IMG/VR virus record: IMGVR_UViG_3300003324_000667
Coordinates: 18,328 to 38,445 of that record
Source: a virus
Reading direction: 5' to 3' (one strand)
DNA length: 20,118 bases
Within the stretch, counting starts at the first letter, position 1. Every line of letters begins with the position of its first letter. The position numbers were made by a program, and so were the translations under genes. A model generated the notes under the pieces. The model was not told where the DNA came from, did not search any database, and saw nothing but the letters and a program-made list of their open reading frames with translations. Shown one piece after another: positions 594-12,325 of the stretch.

Positions 594-1802
594 TTAAAAG
601 ATGCTGTAACCCCCGGATTTCATTCTGCCCGAGACGCCCTGCCAGGCCATAGCGAGACTCATAACGCAGTCGTCGTGCATCCCGTCCGGCGCCGAGTATC
701 GAACCAGCCCGGACGGCAGGATCTCGGCTTCGAATGATTTCAATTCACCGATCAGGATGTCGTTTCGCAGTATCTTCAGATCGCCGCGCTCGAAAGCCAG
801 GCTAAGGTCCTCGACGGCGTTAGCCTTTGAGAGATTCGTTGTCGTGAATGACTTTACGCGCAGGCCGTCCTTGCGCAGCATTTCGATATTCGGTTCTCCG
901 ATCGAATTGCTTTCGGCAATGATCGCCGTCGGCCGAAACTTCTCATAAAGAACTTTGAGCCGGTTGCGCTGGATCGTGTAATCGATGCCGTTGTGACGAT
1001 CGATATAAACGAGCTCCTTCGTTTTCTCATCGATGACCGTAAAAACGGAAAAGTCCGTATGCTTCGCCCAGTCCACGCCGATAACGTAGCTGTGGCCGCT
1101 TACGCGTTCATTTTGAGGAGTCGCGATCGCCTGCTGATCTACAAAACGAAAAAACGCTCCGTCTGCGAGAAACTCCGCCAGATATTCCTGCTGGAACACT
1201 CTTTCCGGAAGGCCCAGCCGGGCCGCTTCGATCTCGGCCGGCTTTATATACGGATTTGTGGAAGTCGGCATCTTCCAGGACTTCCATTCCGAATTGAGAG
1301 GGTCCTGGCCGAGCTGGTAGAGATCGTGGAAGTAATTGAGTCCTTTCGGCGTCGAGAGGAAAAAAGCATCGCCGACATAATCGGAAAGAGTCGCGCGGAT
1401 CGATTCCGTCCATGCGATTTTCAGATGTCGGGCTTTCGCCGCCTCGTCGATGATGACGCGTTTATATTTTCGAGATCTGCCGGCATCAGGATCTTCGAGG
1501 GACCAGAAATCTATTACTCCGCCAGTTACGAGCTGAATACGCTTTTCTGAGGCGTTCTTTTCGGCGATGACGGGCCTTAGCAGCCTGATCACTTCCCTCC
1601 ACACCTCGATCAGATATTTGTACGACGGTGCGAACCATCCGACAGGGTAACCTTTGAGCGCCGGCTCGAGCTCGAGACTGGTACCGATCAGCGTCTTGCC
1701 GAAGCGCCGGCCGCAATCGACAACATTAAATCGCTTTGTCTCACGGAGTATTCGCTGTTGGCCGGCGTGAGGTTTAGGAAGGATCAGCCGGATCGTTTGC
1801 AT
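594..1802 (-). CDS. terL: Terminase large subunit (packaging ATPase/nuclease)
   Basis: The motor that cuts concatemeric phage DNA and pumps it into the prohead through the portal. About 402 residues, typical for the family. An adenine-binding-like N-terminus is followed by a Walker A variant CGRRFGKT (about residues 30-37) and a Walker B VIIDEAAK (about 116-123). The nuclease half has VIGVDWAKHTD (first acidic residue about 244), IIAESN (about 293-298) and HDDCVMSLAMA (about 375), matching the RNase H-fold catalytic acids. The ATG at 1802 is chosen because AAGGTG lies 10 bases upstream. A TTG at 1811 would sit almost on top of that site. The start overlaps the end of the small-subunit gene by 29 bases, suggesting translational coupling. 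Confidence 0.93.
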   Translation of the reverse strand: MQTIRLILPKPHAGQQRILRETKRFNVVDCGRRFGKTLIGTSLELEPALKGYPVGWFAPSYKYLIEVWREVIRLLRPVIAEKNASEKRIQLVTGGVIDFWSLEDPDAGRSRKYKRVIIDEAAKARHLKIAWTESIRATLSDYVGDAFFLSTPKGLNYFHDLYQLGQDPLNSEWKSWKMPTSTNPYIKPAEIEAARLGLPERVFQQEYLAEFLADGAFFRFVDQQAIATPQNERVSGHSYVIGVDWAKHTDFSVFTVIDEKTKELVYIDRHNGIDYTIQRNRLKVLYEKFRPTAIIAESNSIGEPNIEMLRKDGLRVKSFTTTNLSKANAVEDLSLAFERGDLKILRNDILIGELKSFEAEILPSGLVRYSAPDGMHDDCVMSLAMAWQGVSGRMKSGGYSIF

Positions 1803-2187
1803 ATTCGACAATCACCTTGAGCGGTTCGCCGTCTTTTCCCTCATGGGCAAGTTTCGTCGGCGCGTAATTGCCCTGGAGTAGATTTATTTCGCGGAGAAGA
1901 TTGCGGATCTCGCGCGAGACCATGATGGACTTGCTTACGCGGAATTTCTCGCGAAGCTCGAAGATCTGGTCCTCGAGTATCGCGATCGATTCCGCACGCG
2001 AATCGGCGACGATCTTGACCTGGTTTCTTTTGAGGAAACCGGCGACGGCCTTCTGACAGGCCTGTATGGATTTCCAGTGACCGAGCTTCGCAATTATTTC
2101 ATCGTACGGGGTTTTCGCCAGACGAAGCCTGACCGCTTTTGTGAGCAGCTCCTGATACTCGATATCTTTGTGCGAGGTCTTACTCAT
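1774..2187 (-). CDS. Putative terminase small subunit
   Basis: A 137-residue protein. Its N-terminal region (residues 10-55) looks like a helix-turn-helix: YQELLTKAVRLRLAKTPYDEI, then a Q-A-C-Q-K-A-V segment. A charged coiled-coil stretch follows (about 65-105), then a tail with GKDGEPLKVIVEY. Small terminase subunits recognise the packaging site through an N-terminal HTH and oligomerise through a central helical region, which fits. The GEPLKVIV tail is common in phage TerS-like proteins. Position supports the call: it is immediately upstream of and overlapping TerL, and its ATG overlaps the stop of the metallopeptidase gene by 8 bases. Assignment is by context and layout; sequence motifs alone are weak. 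Confidence 0.7.
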   Translation of the reverse strand: MSKTSHKDIEYQELLTKAVRLRLAKTPYDEIIAKLGHWKSIQACQKAVAGFLKRNQVKIVADSRAESIAILEDQIFELREKFRVSKSIMVSREIRNLLREINLLQGNYAPTKLAHEGKDGEPLKVIVEYANDPADPS

Positions 2188-2662
2188 TTAGAATGCGGTC
2201 GAGGATCTCCTGCCGCGTCGAATCGTCTTCCTCCCCGCGTTCCAGAGCTTCGTAAAAATGCTCGAGGGCCGGGTGATACGCGCCATGCCGTTCGACGACT
2301 TCGGGGAACTCTTCGACGCTGTGCGGCCGCAGCCGAAGGTTGTCGGTTTCGTCGTTGTAATCGATATGGCAGATCTCGTGATCGAGAATTGCGACGTGTG
2401 CGCGGGCTTCGTGAGTTTCCCAGTTGGGAACGACGATCTGGATCAAAAACCAAGGCTCCTGTTCGCCGGCTGCTCGTGACCAAAGCCAGGCTTTTATACC
2501 CGATATCTTTTCGATCCTTGCGACCGTGTAGGGCGAATCAGGAAAACGTGTCGATCGGTAAACAGCGCGGACAGTCGTGCCTTGCAGAAGCGGATAGAAA
2601 TGCTCGATCAGGCGGTCAATGTATGGCTGGAGATCGTCAGCGGCCCGGAATTCGAGTGCCAT
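2180..2662 (-). CDS. Putative phage metallopeptidase (HExxH)
   Basis: 160 residues with a clear zinc-peptidase motif HEICH at about 95-99, followed closely by IDY and a conserved-looking acidic segment. The N-terminus (FRAADDLQPYIDRLIEHFYPLL) and the QIVVPNWETHEARAHVAILDHE run match the putative phage metallopeptidase-like family often found next to terminase genes. The substrate is unknown; family members are named from the motif alone. It heads a three-gene packaging unit (metallopeptidase, TerS, TerL) and its leader carries a CATAAT motif 17 bases before the ATG. An anti-restriction or host-protein-processing role would be speculation. Confidence 0.75.
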   Translation of the reverse strand: MALEFRAADDLQPYIDRLIEHFYPLLQGTTVRAVYRSTRFPDSPYTVARIEKISGIKAWLWSRAAGEQEPWFLIQIVVPNWETHEARAHVAILDHEICHIDYNDETDNLRLRPHSVEEFPEVVERHGAYHPALEHFYEALERGEEDDSTRQEILDRILNE

Positions 2663-2679
2663 TGGATTTTTTAAGAAAA

Positions 2680-2702
2680 ATTATGCGGAACAAACGCACA
2701 GC
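2680..2702 (-). promoter_or_regulatory. CATAAT leader motif, copy 3 (putative promoter)
   Basis: On the minus strand, 17 bases beginning GCTGTG precede CATAAT, which is followed by TTTTCTT. It starts only 17 bases before the metallopeptidase ATG, so a transcript from it would have a very short leader. This copy matches the other two less well upstream of CATAAT. It lies in the short gap downstream of the holin-like gene. Confidence 0.35.
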
Positions 2703-2733
2703 TTTTCCACAGGTGCAAAACTCGCTAAACCGC

Positions 2734-2916
2734 CTATTTCTTGCGTTTGAAATAAAGCTGCAAAAGCACATCGACGGTTTTCGAAATGACAAAGAACGCG
2801 CACGGCAGAACGATCGACGCGACGATCGTGATATTGCTCGGTTTGTCGATTAGTGCAAGGAACGCCGGCGAGCTCGAGACCGCGGCAATGATGTGAGATT
2901 TGAAATCGTGGAACAT
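2734..2916 (-). CDS. Small membrane protein, holin-like by position
   Basis: 60 residues. The N-terminal half is mildly amphipathic (FKSHIIAAVSSSPAFLALID). A strong hydrophobic segment of about 25 residues (ITIVASIVLPCAFFVISKTV) follows, and the protein ends in a basic tail YFKRKK. One clear transmembrane helix, possibly two. It is the last gene of the lysis cassette, starting 4 bases after the preceding stop. Small size, basic C-terminus and position fit a holin or holin accessory protein, but no family is recognised. The alternative is a generic small phage membrane protein. Confidence 0.6.
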   Translation of the reverse strand: MFHDFKSHIIAAVSSSPAFLALIDKPSNITIVASIVLPCAFFVISKTVDVLLQLYFKRKK

Positions 2917-2920
2917 AAAT

Positions 2921-3364
2921 TTACGGGATGAGGAATTTGAGTGCGATCACGCCGGCGGCGACGATGTAGGCCTTGTATTTGCCCATCTTTTCTTTATGGG
3001 CTTTGTCCTTCCAATGATCGCGGTCAGCCTGGAGCGCGGCGATCGTCTGCTCATTCAGGACGATGACTTTGTGCAGGGCTTCGTTGGCAGCTCGCAAGGA
3101 ATCGATCTCGCGTTTCGCGGAATCATAGGAACGCGTGACGGACTGTGAGTTTTCCTTTTCGGCCGCAATTTCCGTCTCGAGATCTGCGATCCGCTTTTCC
3201 TGCGCGGCTATGAGATCTCGGGCTTTTTCGTTCTGGTCGAGAAGAAAGGAGACCGTCTGATCAGTCGTTACAGTACTCGAAGGCTGTATCTGGGAAATCG
3301 CGCTTGAGGCGCAAACAATTATCAGCGCGAGAACTATTGAGATTTTGAGGATCGGTTTTTTCAT
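2921..3364 (-). CDS. Spanin-like protein: signal segment, coiled coil, C-terminal TM
   Basis: 147 residues from the ATG at 3364 (MKKPILKIS). Basic N-terminus, then a hydrophobic segment (about 5-19) ending VCASSAIS, a signal-peptide-like start; Cys18 is in a poor lipobox context (IIVC). The middle (about 45-120) is a long charged heptad-like helix, including QEKRIADLETEIAAEKE and NEQTIAALQADRDH. It ends in a short hydrophobic C-terminus (YIVAAGVIALKFLIP). Its start lies 104 bases inside the upstream gene in another frame, an arrangement typical of nested spanin pairs. The layout (exported or anchored N-terminus, coiled coil, C-terminal membrane segment) recalls unimolecular spanins, but the lipobox is not convincing. 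A longer frame reaching to 3628 is rejected because it is arginine-rich shadow sequence. Confidence 0.65.
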   Translation of the reverse strand: MKKPILKISIVLALIIVCASSAISQIQPSSTVTTDQTVSFLLDQNEKARDLIAAQEKRIADLETEIAAEKENSQSVTRSYDSAKREIDSLRAANEALHKVIVLNEQTIAALQADRDHWKDKAHKEKMGKYKAYIVAAGVIALKFLIP

Positions 3365-3707
3365 TGTATTTGCGTTTTGCTTCGTCCAAAGCGGTTTTTG
3401 AGGATCGTGAGTTTCGCCGGGCAGTGTCGAGTTTCGGAGCGATCGTCTTTTCGCGGATAGCATCCTCCGTCTTTCGCTCGACGGACGCATCAGCGGCGTT
3501 GGATTCGCTTTGTACGGCCTGATTGACGGCGTTCGCCGCCTGCGTCTGGGTCGATTTGATATCACGATCCGTTCCGGCCTGTTTGAAATAGCCCAAACCG
3601 GCCGCGATCGCCCACAAAACGACGACAACTACGATCAGCGTGATCGCCCATGAGAGACGATCGCCTTTCCAGAGGCTATTTAAAAATCCTTTTATGAAGT
3701 CTTTCAT
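3261..3707 (-). CDS. Membrane-anchored coiled-coil protein, i-spanin (Rz)-like
   Basis: 148 residues. A short amphipathic N-terminus (MKDFIKGFLNSLW) is followed by one strong membrane helix (about 19-41, ITLIVVVVVLWAIAAGLGYF). A long polar helical region rich in A, Q, K, E (about 45-125) follows, then a C-terminal tail with two cysteines (NCLRLKRDFPDTAFEYCND). N-terminal anchor plus periplasmic coiled coil is the layout of inner-membrane spanins, which fuse the membranes at the end of lysis in Gram-negative hosts. The start overlaps the endolysin stop (ATGA). The end overlaps the next gene by 104 bases in a different frame. No specific family is recognised, so the role is inferred from topology and neighbours. 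Confidence 0.65.
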   Translation of the reverse strand: MKDFIKGFLNSLWKGDRLSWAITLIVVVVVLWAIAAGLGYFKQAGTDRDIKSTQTQAANAVNQAVQSESNAADASVERKTEDAIREKTIAPKLDTARRNSRSSKTALDEAKRKYNEKTDPQNLNSSRADNCLRLKRDFPDTAFEYCND

Positions 3708-8967: not shown

Positions 8968-9231
8968 TCAGCGATTGTTGTTTCCGGCGATTCTTAACTG
9001 CGGTTTGATATCAACCTGCTTAGTGCCGTCATCGATGAAACCTGACCCTGGGCCTCCTCCTACGTGTTTCTGGAATTCGACCTCCACCTTTGCGGAATCG
9101 ACCAGTACGCGGCCGATATCGGCGATCGTCTTTGCTTTCTGTACATCCATCTCCGATTCCGGATCCTTGAGCAATTCGATCGTTTCAAACAAATGATCCC
9201 GAAGATCTTCCATTCTGTTTTTGCGTGGCAT
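8968..9231 (-). CDS. Conserved-looking phage protein, unknown
   Basis: 87 residues beginning PRKNRMEDLRDHLFETIELLKDPE, then MDVQKAKTIADIGRVLVDSAKVEVEFQKHVGG, then a glycine-rich loop and a short tail. The opening K-N-R-x-x-D-L-R-x-H-L-F-E-T plus A-K-x-I-x-x-x-x-x-x-x-x-x-S-A-K-V-E pattern is a familiar short helical protein of prophage early regions; its function is not known to me. A good AGGAG lies 7 bases before the ATG. The start overlaps the end of the HNH gene by 47 bases in another frame. Confidence 0.78.
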   Translation of the reverse strand: MPRKNRMEDLRDHLFETIELLKDPESEMDVQKAKTIADIGRVLVDSAKVEVEFQKHVGGGPGSGFIDDGTKQVDIKPQLRIAGNNNR

Positions 9232-10009
9232 TTCTTATCTCCTTATTTAGTTCTGACAAAACGACCATGGTTGGAACGACCTCGGCCGGGTATTTGTGGA
9301 TGGAATTTCGAAGCATGTTTTCCGCTTGAGGGATCAGCTTCAGGTTTGAGTATTCGCAGTTTTGCTTATCGCCGTCCTTGAAAGTGACGCAAAAGCCTTT
9401 CGGCTGCCGGCCGTGGTGAAGCCGCCAGACGTCCTGGTGAAGAAACCGCCATTGGAATAATCCAGTCTCTGCAACTTTTACCAGGATGTATCCTTCAGTA
9501 TCGATCCTGGTCGATCCGGGCGGTTTCCAGTTTATTGATCGCTGGCCTTTCTTGAACTGCGTTTCAGCCATTCGCCCGACGGTAAATCCTGGACGTCGCA
9601 GCCCCTTGTTCGCCGGAACGTGGCCCTTGGGAAAACGATGAGCGACGCCACTGGCTGATAACCGCTCACGCTCAAGGCGTCTCTTTTCGGCGGTATAAGC
9701 TTCGCTCTTTTTTATGCCGAGCTTGGTTGCCTTCTTGTAGATCGAATCGATATCCCGGCCAATGAGGTTCGCGAGTTCGCCGGTCTGTATATCGGCGTAA
9801 TTCTCGTTTAGCAGACGGAGCTGCTCGGGTGTCCATTTACGAGACTGGTATAAACCTAATACGCCGGCCTTTGCCTTGATCGCGCTTTCGGTTTTTCCAA
9901 GTTCTTCGGCAATAACTTGATTGGAGACTTTTCTGTAATTCTCACGAAGGAAATCAAGATCCTGTTCGGTCCATTTTCCCGCTCGTGGAGCTTCTACGCG
10001 ATGTCGCAT
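9185..10009 (-). CDS. HNH endonuclease with two SANT/Myb-like repeats
   Basis: 274 residues. Two N-terminal SANT/Myb-like modules in tandem: KWTEQDLDFLRENY onward (about 12-53) and KWTPEQLRLLNENY onward (about 58-100). Each is a three-helix DNA-binding unit starting with K-W-T. A basic linker (FPKGHVPANKGL) follows. The HNH-type domain is GYILVKVAETGLFQWRFLHQ, VWRLHHG, then VTFKDGDKQNCEYSNLKLI, with likely metal/catalytic residues His191 and Asn222. Such proteins are free-standing phage endonucleases, either selfish homing enzymes or helpers in DNA processing. Start at ATG 10009 with an AGGAGGAAGG site. It lies directly after the iteron field. Confidence 0.88.
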   Translation of the reverse strand: MRHRVEAPRAGKWTEQDLDFLRENYRKVSNQVIAEELGKTESAIKAKAGVLGLYQSRKWTPEQLRLLNENYADIQTGELANLIGRDIDSIYKKATKLGIKKSEAYTAEKRRLERERLSASGVAHRFPKGHVPANKGLRRPGFTVGRMAETQFKKGQRSINWKPPGSTRIDTEGYILVKVAETGLFQWRFLHQDVWRLHHGRQPKGFCVTFKDGDKQNCEYSNLKLIPQAENMLRNSIHKYPAEVVPTMVVLSELNKEIRNATQKQNGRSSGSFV

Positions 10010-10066
10010 GTTTGATCCTTCCTCCTTAGTTTTTGGTTTTTCTTTTCCTTTACTCTTTCTTTAAAC

Positions 10067-10290
10067 AACACTTTGAACACTTCCTGAACACTTCTTTAAA
10101 AAAAGAATCTCTTAAGAGCCAATAAAAATAGACGTTTGAACACTTTGAACACTTTGAACACTTCTTTTCGCACTTTTAGATTTAAATACGGAAAGTCCAA
10201 AACAAGTGTTGGAAGTGTTCAAGTGTATAAAACCCTTTGTTCGCAAACGTTTGCATTTTTCAGAAGTGTTCAGGAAGTGTTCAAAGTGTT
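10067..10290. repeat. GAACACTT iteron field with 29-bp perfect inverted repeat; candidate replication origin
   Basis: The 280-base gap between the helicase and HNH genes holds about ten copies of an 8-mer. GAACACTT (top strand) is at 10075, 10086, 10138, 10147 and 10156, the last three spaced exactly 9 bases. AAGTGTTC is at 10213, 10264, 10275 and 10284, with a variant at 10204. The outermost copies form a 29-bp perfect inverted repeat: 10067-10095 matches the reverse complement of 10262-10290, 166 bases apart. Between them lie an A-rich stretch and the palindrome CTCTTAAGAG (10109-10118). The helicase stop codon lies at the inner edge (10290-10292). Iterons plus an AT-rich core beside a replicative helicase fit a phage origin. 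The alternative is an operator array. Confidence 0.6.
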
Positions 10291-11780
10291 CAGAATCGTA
10301 ATTCCCCCGAATCCAAAAGGCGCACTCCCTCCCAGTACCGGCCCCCCGAATTGGCCTGGTGGAAACCGCGTTCACGCATGTTTTGCGTAAGTTTCCGGTG
10401 CGATCGCAAATATTCCCCGTTATCCTCGCAGAATTTTTTATAAGCCTTGTAGAGGTCCGAGTTAGCGATCCGGTAATGGGCCGGGATAACGTAAGTATCC
10501 GGGGCCCTGGCTCTGGCCTGCTCGTAAGTCTCGCAGGCTTCGTGTATGAACTGGCCGATCGAATCCTGTTCCCACCGGTACGCATCGATCTCGGCCTGAA
10601 TTGCCGGCGGAACGTCGAGTCCGTTCAGATCTAAATAATCGCGACATCCCTGGACCGCCCAGGCGAGTATTCCCGGAGCCTCGGCCATGAGCTGCGACAT
10701 TAGATCGTCGGATTTGATAAGCCTGTCGGCGGGAATACTCGTCGAGAAGGGGATCAGCTTGAGGCGGTCCCAAAATCCTTTGCTGTGATCCGTGATCGTC
10801 GGTTTGTGGTTTGTCGCGATCCACAATTTGCCGGTGAAGTAGAAATCGAAAAATTCACCGAAAAGAAACCGCGCGGTCATTTGATCACCAGACGAAAGAG
10901 CCTTAACGAGCGCGGAATTGAGCCGTTCGTTCTCCTCGGTTTCTGGAATGATGATGAACCGCTTGCCTCGAAGACGAGCAATATCGTTAGGGATCGACGA
11001 CTGGCGGCTGGCTAGGATGCTTGCCGTCGTCGTGCCGGACGAATAATCGCCAAGCAAGTTGTTGAAGAGATTTACAAAGATCGATTTTCCGTTATTGCCG
11101 GTGCCGTAAAGGATCCAGAAGCTTCGCTCGCGCACCGTGCCGAGGAGCGAATAGCCGATCGACCGCTGCAGGAATGCCCTGACGCTCGGATCGGGCTGGA
11201 TCGTTTCGAGGAATGTGTCAAAGACCGGACATTTTGCATCAGCGTCAAAATCGCAAGCGACAACCTTTGTGATCCGCATCGACCTGTCGTGCTGCAGCAA
11301 TCCTCCCGTTCGAAGATCCAGCGTTCCGTTACCGCAATTCAAAAGAAACGGTTCGGTGTCCAGTCCGGTTGTCGAAACGGTCTTCGCTCGAGCAGCGAGC
11401 TGCAGGAACGCGTCCAGGCCGGCTCGGCTGTTTACGCGTTGCGCGTACTTCAAACCGTCGGCGGTAGAGAGATTTTCAGGCGAGTAAAGGTTTTTTGCGA
11501 ACTCGACGGCGAGCTGGAAAACAAAATCCTCGGTGTCGACATTCCATCTTGTCTTATCCCAGATGAGCCATTTTCGGGCCTCAGCGAGATAGAGCAGATC
11601 TTCGCCGGCGAATGCGAGAAAACGCTCGGCGGTCGCGACGTCATTGAAACGCCATTTCGGTTCCGGGGGTAACACCTGATGGCCGTTCGACCGGGCAAGG
11701 TTTTTTTGTTTTGCCTGCATCGCGGCCGCGATCTCGTCAAGCTCGGCGTCGGTCACTTCTTTCATTTTGGGAGAAGTCAT
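10290..11780 (-). CDS. D5-type phage/plasmid primase-helicase, SF3 ATPase
   Basis: 496 residues. The N-terminal part (about 40-200) matches the D5_N region: FLAFAGEDLLYL, KWLIWDKTRW, FLLNCGNGTLDLRTG. The SF3 ATPase follows: Walker A GTGNNGKS (226-233), a Walker B-like FIIIPETEE (275-283) and motif C LWIATNHKP (319-327). The C-terminal part has the FWDRLKLIPF segment and a helical tail (SDLYKAYKKFCED) typical of the winged-helix end. It unwinds DNA at the phage origin. No Toprim or AEP primase motif is visible in this chain, so priming would need another protein, perhaps the gene upstream. Its ATG overlaps that gene's stop (ATGA), and its own stop lies in the iteron field. Confidence 0.93.
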   Translation of the reverse strand: MTSPKMKEVTDAELDEIAAAMQAKQKNLARSNGHQVLPPEPKWRFNDVATAERFLAFAGEDLLYLAEARKWLIWDKTRWNVDTEDFVFQLAVEFAKNLYSPENLSTADGLKYAQRVNSRAGLDAFLQLAARAKTVSTTGLDTEPFLLNCGNGTLDLRTGGLLQHDRSMRITKVVACDFDADAKCPVFDTFLETIQPDPSVRAFLQRSIGYSLLGTVRERSFWILYGTGNNGKSIFVNLFNNLLGDYSSGTTTASILASRQSSIPNDIARLRGKRFIIIPETEENERLNSALVKALSSGDQMTARFLFGEFFDFYFTGKLWIATNHKPTITDHSKGFWDRLKLIPFSTSIPADRLIKSDDLMSQLMAEAPGILAWAVQGCRDYLDLNGLDVPPAIQAEIDAYRWEQDSIGQFIHEACETYEQARARAPDTYVIPAHYRIANSDLYKAYKKFCEDNGEYLRSHRKLTQNMRERGFHQANSGGRYWEGVRLLDSGELRF

Positions 11781-12325
11781 ATTCGGGCCGCCCTCCCGTG
11801 TGTAACGCGCCGCGGAGCCGCGTACGTGATCAGACCGGCCTCGAACAAAGCACTGTCGTGATCCAACATCCTGATCGCCCTGGGCCCACCGAATTTCGCA
11901 CTCGAGAGTAAAAAGAACTTATCGATCTGGCCGAGCGGCTGGCAGAAAATTCCGTTATAGAAACCGAGGCGCGATCGATAGCCGTAAAGGACGCAGCCCG
12001 AAGGCAGCGTCCAGCAAAGCCGGCCGCGTACGTCGCGGTAGAACCCGGCGATCAGGGACAAACGGTTACCGTATTTTTCATCGAGATATTCGAGGATGTT
12101 TGCCGGCCGCGTTCCGCGATACGCGGTTTCCGCGAGCTCGGGCGAGACGCGAAGCAAAAGAAATTTCGAAAGCGTCTCTTTCGGCAGTCTCAGATTGGCC
12201 ATGAACACCTGCGTCTGCGGTGCGGACGCCGGCGGCAGCAGCGCGATCAGGTCTTCAAAGACGCAGTGTCTCAGGCTGTTGATCGCCTCGGGTGATAGTT
12301 GTTTCGATAAGCCGTTTTGCGGCAT
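11777..12325 (-). CDS. Unknown protein of the replication module
   Basis: 182 residues, not recognised. The N-terminal half is helical (INSLRHCVFEDLIALLPPAS). The C-terminal half has a beta-rich stretch: LIAGFYRDVRGRLCWTLPSG, CVLYGYRSRLGFYNGIFCQP, LGQIDKFFLLSS. The G-x-R-G-x-L-x-W-x-L-P-S-G and RLGFYNGI phrases recall the N-terminal zinc/Toprim-like parts of phage primases. No cysteine cluster or acidic Toprim motif is present, so that is only a resemblance. It is coupled to the helicase by an ATGA overlap, so a role in initiation or priming is the natural guess. Confidence 0.7.
   Translation of the reverse strand: MPQNGLSKQLSPEAINSLRHCVFEDLIALLPPASAPQTQVFMANLRLPKETLSKFLLLRVSPELAETAYRGTRPANILEYLDEKYGNRLSLIAGFYRDVRGRLCWTLPSGCVLYGYRSRLGFYNGIFCQPLGQIDKFFLLSSAKFGGPRAIRMLDHDSALFEAGLITYAAPRRVTHGRAARI

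Follow-up and report, generated by a model that had tools for sequence, protein, structure and literature searches.

Introduction

The origins of PICIs lie immediately 3' of the initiator gene, where two sets of iterons flank an AT-rich region, a layout that the paper describing it called unique to PICIs (PMC6092414). In SaPIs, Rep uses its C-terminal domain to recognize iterons that follow its gene directly, and it apparently does so in the form of two hexamers (PMC7581432). The record of Lactobacillus phage A2 (AJ251789) annotates a rep_origin at 32208-32717, starting from the 3' end of the primase gene. In the annotation of P4, the crr element lies directly 3' of alpha and carries type I iterons (TGTTCACC) in both orientations, while the replication origin (9086-9809) is about 4.5 kb from crr. 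Finally, a 100-bp stem-loop that lies 54 bp downstream of the helicase-primase gene is required in the Sulfolobus plasmid pRN1; the authors found no iterons there and read the origin as a stem-loop (PMC4234260).

Here we describe an iteron field behind a P4-family helicase gene, together with the predicted fold of the helicase and the conservation of the arrangement in other phages. The window, that is, the whole stretch of 20,118 nt that we analyzed, corresponds to positions 18328-38445 of the 38,445-base viral record IMGVR_UViG_3300003324_000667. We consider it very probable (roughly 87%) that a temperate phage starts its replication at this field, next to the helicase gene, and that the helicase binds the iterons with its C-terminus and loads as a pair of opposed hexamers. 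The position, the bipartite iterons and the AT-rich centre are already known from PICIs (PMC6092414), SaPIs and A2; the locus provides a precise, compact origin candidate for an uncharacterised phage.

Layout of the iteron field

The window contains a Terminase_6C match, and by inspection the rest of the record holds portal-, capsid- and tail-type ORFs. These genes point to a full-size temperate phage and not a satellite of the SaPI/PICI kind, which would be without a large terminase or virion genes of its own. The field is intergenic, between the helicase gene and an HNH gene on the same strand (Table 1). Read in the direction of the helicase gene, which is on the minus strand, the field begins at the stop codon, as the initial annotation had stated for what it called a D5-type helicase; the TGA (10290-10292) belongs to the first iteron (TGAACACTT) and makes up its first three bases.

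That annotation had also counted about ten units, three of them in tandem at nine bases, and our scan agrees. There are nine exact GAACACTT units, five one way (10075, 10086, 10138, 10147 and 10156, plus strand) and four in the opposite orientation (10213, 10264, 10275 and 10284, minus strand), with one-mismatch units (CAACACTT) at 10066 (plus) and 10204 (minus) and a spacing of 9 bp in the tandem run 10138/10147/10156. Allowing up to two mismatches to TGAACACTT gives 12 units, six per orientation, in four blocks (A-D) of three units each, degenerate ones included, which are arranged as mirror images. The outer blocks account for the exact 29-bp inverted repeat with a 166-bp gap that had been noticed at the outset, and its arms extend to 35 nt at 94%. 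Blocks A and D mirror each other exactly, with start positions summing to 215 in all three pairs, while B and C have a mirror centre that lies about 5 bp away from the outer dyad. The inverted-repeat score was 29, compared with a maximum of 14 in 200 dinucleotide shuffles of the region. The most frequent 8-mer, on the other hand, occurred nine times versus up to 12 times in some shuffles, presumably because of poly-A/T words, and we do not use its count as support.

The A-rich stretch and the palindrome reported inside the field are both present, and the array as a whole is 66.5% AT, which places it among the 0.2% of 224-bp windows with the highest AT content in the record; the richest of all starts at about window position 10008. 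Between the outer arms the AT content is 68%, versus 49% for the window. A second, perfect 12-bp palindrome, GCAAACGTTTGC, occurs between blocks A and B (10243-10254) as a single copy in the record, and is a possible regulator site.

Table 1. Features of the iteron field and its surroundings. Positions refer to the window; unit starts are given in the helicase sense, counted from the stop codon.
Feature	Position	Strand	Unit starts	Remarks
Terminase_6C match	594-1811			
HNH gene	9185-10009	-		downstream of the helicase gene
Iteron block D, helicase-distal	10065-10093	+	197, 208, 217 (reverse)	units 10085-10093, 10074-10082 and degenerate 10065-10073
Left arm of exact 29-bp inverted repeat	10067-10095	+		
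A-rich spacer	10094-10136			includes palindrome CTCTTAAGAG at 10109-10118
Iteron block C	10137-10163	+	127, 136, 145 (reverse)	three tandem TGAACACTT units, 9-bp spacing
Central AT-rich spacer	10164-10203			40 bp between opposed half-sites; candidate melting region
Iteron block B	10204-10229	-	61, 69, 78 (forward)	exact unit 10213-10221 and two degenerate units
Right arm of exact 29-bp inverted repeat	10262-10290	-		
Iteron block A, helicase-proximal	10264-10292	-	-2, 7, 18 (forward)	three TGAACACTT units: 10284-10292 (holds the TGA stop), 10275-10283, 10264-10272
P4-family (D5-type, SF3) helicase, presumed initiator	10290-11780	-		496 aa; D5_N, DUF5906, Pox_D5; TIGR01613
182-aa ORF	11777-12325			upstream of the helicase; four-base overlap between its end and the helicase start

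The place of the field between two same-strand genes would also suit an operator or terminator array that regulates the helicase/HNH operon and has no role in replication. However, the field has an AT-rich centre between opposed sets of units, an Rfam scan was empty, and comparable arrays follow the helicase gene in phages that are unrelated and differ in their hosts and in the genes downstream (see below). Given this broad association with helicase genes, we regard a purely regulatory array as extremely unlikely.

The field also does not resemble an origin of the DnaA/oriC type, as DnaA boxes (TTWTNCACA) are absent from it and only one is found in the window, at 2703. A scan for tRNAs was empty. 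Cumulative GC skew of the full record, which had been proposed as a check, was uninformative: it shows no turn at the field (near record position 28505) and has its extremes at record positions 9888 and 25107.

Comparison with P4 and pRN1

The field shares several features with P4 crr: the position 3' of the helicase gene (alpha in P4), iterons in both orientations, a 9-bp spacing of adjacent units, and the six-base core TGTTCA, contained in both the window unit AAGTGTTCA and P4 TGTTCACC. It differs in that the 8-mer is AAGTGTTC in the window, so that only TGTTCA is common to the two and the units do not qualify as type I iterons. Since P4 has a separate ori, the field might, like crr, be an accessory cis element for helicase loading, copy-number or replication control, with the true start elsewhere in the phage. 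Yet the 38-kb record has no second iteron array, which leaves the field as the only candidate site for the same binder; all exact GAACACTT copies in the 38,445-base record are confined to 10066-10292. Moreover, descriptions of A2 and of PICIs name only the site next to the helicase gene as the origin (for PICIs, PMC6092414). Because no second array exists in the record, we consider a crr-like element unlikely here.

The long inverted repeat invites comparison with pRN1, whose stem-loop region sits at the same position relative to the helicase-primase gene (PMC4234260), and the repeat could conceivably work through a stem-loop or cruciform in the DNA, the kind of structure proposed for that origin, instead of through protein-binding iterons. 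In some relatives (loci L167 and L188 of the survey below) the match between the arms does run past the iterons. In contrast to this archaeal plasmid, for which a stem-loop without iterons was proposed, the arms in the window are built of 9-bp units, the inner blocks are offset from the outer dyad, and relatives retain unit repetition and orientation despite sequence change. A stem-loop is thus a very unlikely explanation, and it too would give a helicase-driven origin.

The predicted helicase fold and a proposal for initiation

The helicase scores 258 bits against TIGR01613 (phage/plasmid primase, P4 family), but is without the N-terminal primase part carried by its relatives. P4 alpha has this part, and in the much longer A2 protein it is contained in the same chain. 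Because the helicase is without it, the upstream 182-aa ORF could hold a divergent primase function. Its product, which the initial annotation had named besides the helicase as a possible binder of the field, found no counterpart in Pfam, PHROGs, NCBIfam or the phage records.

An AlphaFold2 model of the helicase, built from 69 sequences, had a mean pLDDT of 92. It matched the SaPI5 primase-helicase 7om0 over residues 37-492 (VIA Z 30.2) and also 7ola, as well as relatives from African swine fever virus and poxviruses. The C-terminal domain (about residues 405-490), modelled alone, is predicted to be a winged helix, and its best structural matches were RFX domains, the tail of viral C962R and the P4 origin-binding domain 1ka8. 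The latter ranked fourth (Z 7.6, 2.9 A, 78 residues, 20% identity), above unrelated winged helices at Z 5-6; a sequence search of the PDB gave no match. A Z below 8 is weak alone, and we consider the predicted resemblance to the P4 origin-binding domain credible because the two proteins belong to a common family and their genes have a common position. The locus thus combines an SF3 helicase of the D5/P4 type that has a C-terminal DNA-binding-type domain with the position 3' of the initiator gene and the two opposed iteron sets around an AT-rich region that are seen in SaPI, PICI and A2 origins, here in a full-size phage instead of a satellite.

By analogy with P4, SaPIs and A2, we can present a proposal for initiation at the field. 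The helicase would bind the 9-bp iterons in double-stranded DNA via its C-terminal winged helix. With six units each way around the AT-rich centre, two opposed hexamers could assemble, and these may then open the DNA at this centre, from which two forks would start. Having six units in each orientation would suit a pair of hexamers, but this agreement is no more than suggestive because fewer units can be recognised in relatives.

Conservation of the layout behind P4-family helicase genes

The initial annotation had proposed looking for the repeats at the same place in relatives. No close relative of the helicase was found in the viral_contigs or genome_contigs collections, where the best hit had about 40% identity, and the iteron sequence itself can therefore not be traced across relatives. 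DNA searches with an iteron pair returned 119+ and 7 contigs, mostly with single matches that are probably due to chance; none of these contigs had a relative of the window helicase detectable by tblastn. What is conserved, as judged from sequence comparison, is the layout, with iteron sequences that differ from phage to phage.

We inspected eight phages singly whose P4-family primases share 31-35% identity with the window helicase across the part that aligns. In all eight, iterons in both orientations follow the primase stop codon, and their sequence differs from phage to phage: phi105 (GTTACTTTT), A2 (ACGGGAGGA), AcaML1 (GTCTGACGG), BPP-1 (TTTGCCTCG), Aminay (AGTGTCGGA), a Listeria phage (AGGGCAGGT), A9Y (GGGTTAATG) and GMA4 (GGTGCCGCA), the last with a less regular array than the other seven. 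A2 comes with the annotated origin at exactly this place. Its blocks at +9/+21, +85, +160 and +224/+236 from the stop have a constant sum of 245, so that, as in the window, four mirrored blocks surround AT-rich DNA immediately 3' of a P4-family gene, although the iteron is ACGGGAGGA in A2 and TGAACACTT in the window.

For a broader survey, we combined the window and the inspected phages with 80 loci from IMG/VR and 80 from bacterial genomes of many phyla, which gave 62 clusters at 60% helicase identity, that of the window among them. Ungapped inverted repeats no more than 420 bp from the helicase stop codon were scored, and the best one was judged against a cut-off of 12 or more. This score was reached in 28 of the 62 clusters, compared with 4 of 248 control windows, which came from the same loci and were unmatched for intergenic position (Mann-Whitney p ~6e-15). 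In 27 of the 28, the gap of the inverted repeat was richer in AT than the locus mean. More than half of the clusters gave no long ungapped inverted repeat with this detector, which misses compact, degenerate or gapped arrays, and this accounts for some of the negatives.

The window had the highest inverted-repeat score of all, closely followed by L140, which has a 27-bp perfect inverted repeat, L294 and L188. In L167, blocks starting at 1/13, 56/65, 153/162 and 205/217 have a constant sum of 218. The idea of an origin is therefore strengthened by similar structures behind P4-family helicases and by the A2 rep_origin, but the suggestion of an unusual symmetrical architecture is not: mirrored blocks recur in A2, L167 and others, and on sequence grounds the symmetry of the window is the extreme of a family trait. 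The iterons nearest to that of the window, CGGACACTT/GGGACACTT, were seen in the viral contigs L167, L169, L176 and L187, and the first of these has the four-block layout as well.

Judged by these arrays, the helicase-adjacent mirrored-iteron layout is widespread among phages and prophages, and full-size phages share what had been called unique to PICIs. The survey itself may have been anticipated in subscription literature. It suggests a simple rule for the origins of P4-helicase phages, namely mirrored iterons at the helicase stop codon. With such a rule, tests of origin specificity, of phage-satellite interference and of the helicase recognition code come within reach for a large number of phages.

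An oriented core in divergent iterons

Although the iterons vary between phages, sequence comparison points to an oriented core of the TGAC/TGAAC type that is common to them. On the helicase-sense strand, left arms had GAC in 13 cases versus GTC in one, and further words were equally one-sided (TGAC 8:0, GGAC 5:0, GTGA 8:0). In a six-base motif search on 27 arms selected by inverted-repeat score, the true orientation gave a log-likelihood of 32.8, versus a maximum of 27.7 in 40 random orientation flips. The TGAAC of the window agrees with the orientation of the shared core. Iteron sequence and C-terminal domain covaried no more than marginally (partial r 0.10, permutation p 0.05), and we do not use this as support.

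More tentatively, P4-family initiators in phages of many bacterial phyla may follow one origin plan, in which mirrored blocks of iterons of about 9 bp, with a TGAC/TGAAC-like core pointing to the AT-rich centre, would let the winged helix place two opposed hexamers while the sequence drifts. If so, the iteron differences would make origins specific to each phage.

Two further arrays were seen beside other ATPases. In L126 (IMGVR_UViG_3300017989_004419), two arrays of TGAACACTT at about 3066-3420 point inwards to an AT-rich stretch that lies between them. They begin directly behind the stop codon of a 458-aa ORF (1684-3060) and are followed by a topoisomerase-family gene. The ORF has Walker-like motifs and no Pfam (above noise) or PHROG family match, and the locus possibly follows the origin plan described above, but with an ATPase that is unrelated. 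In L089, a TGAACACTT/TGAACG array at about 2120-2390 neighbours a RepA/DnaB-like ATPase that has a helix-turn-helix at its C-terminus.
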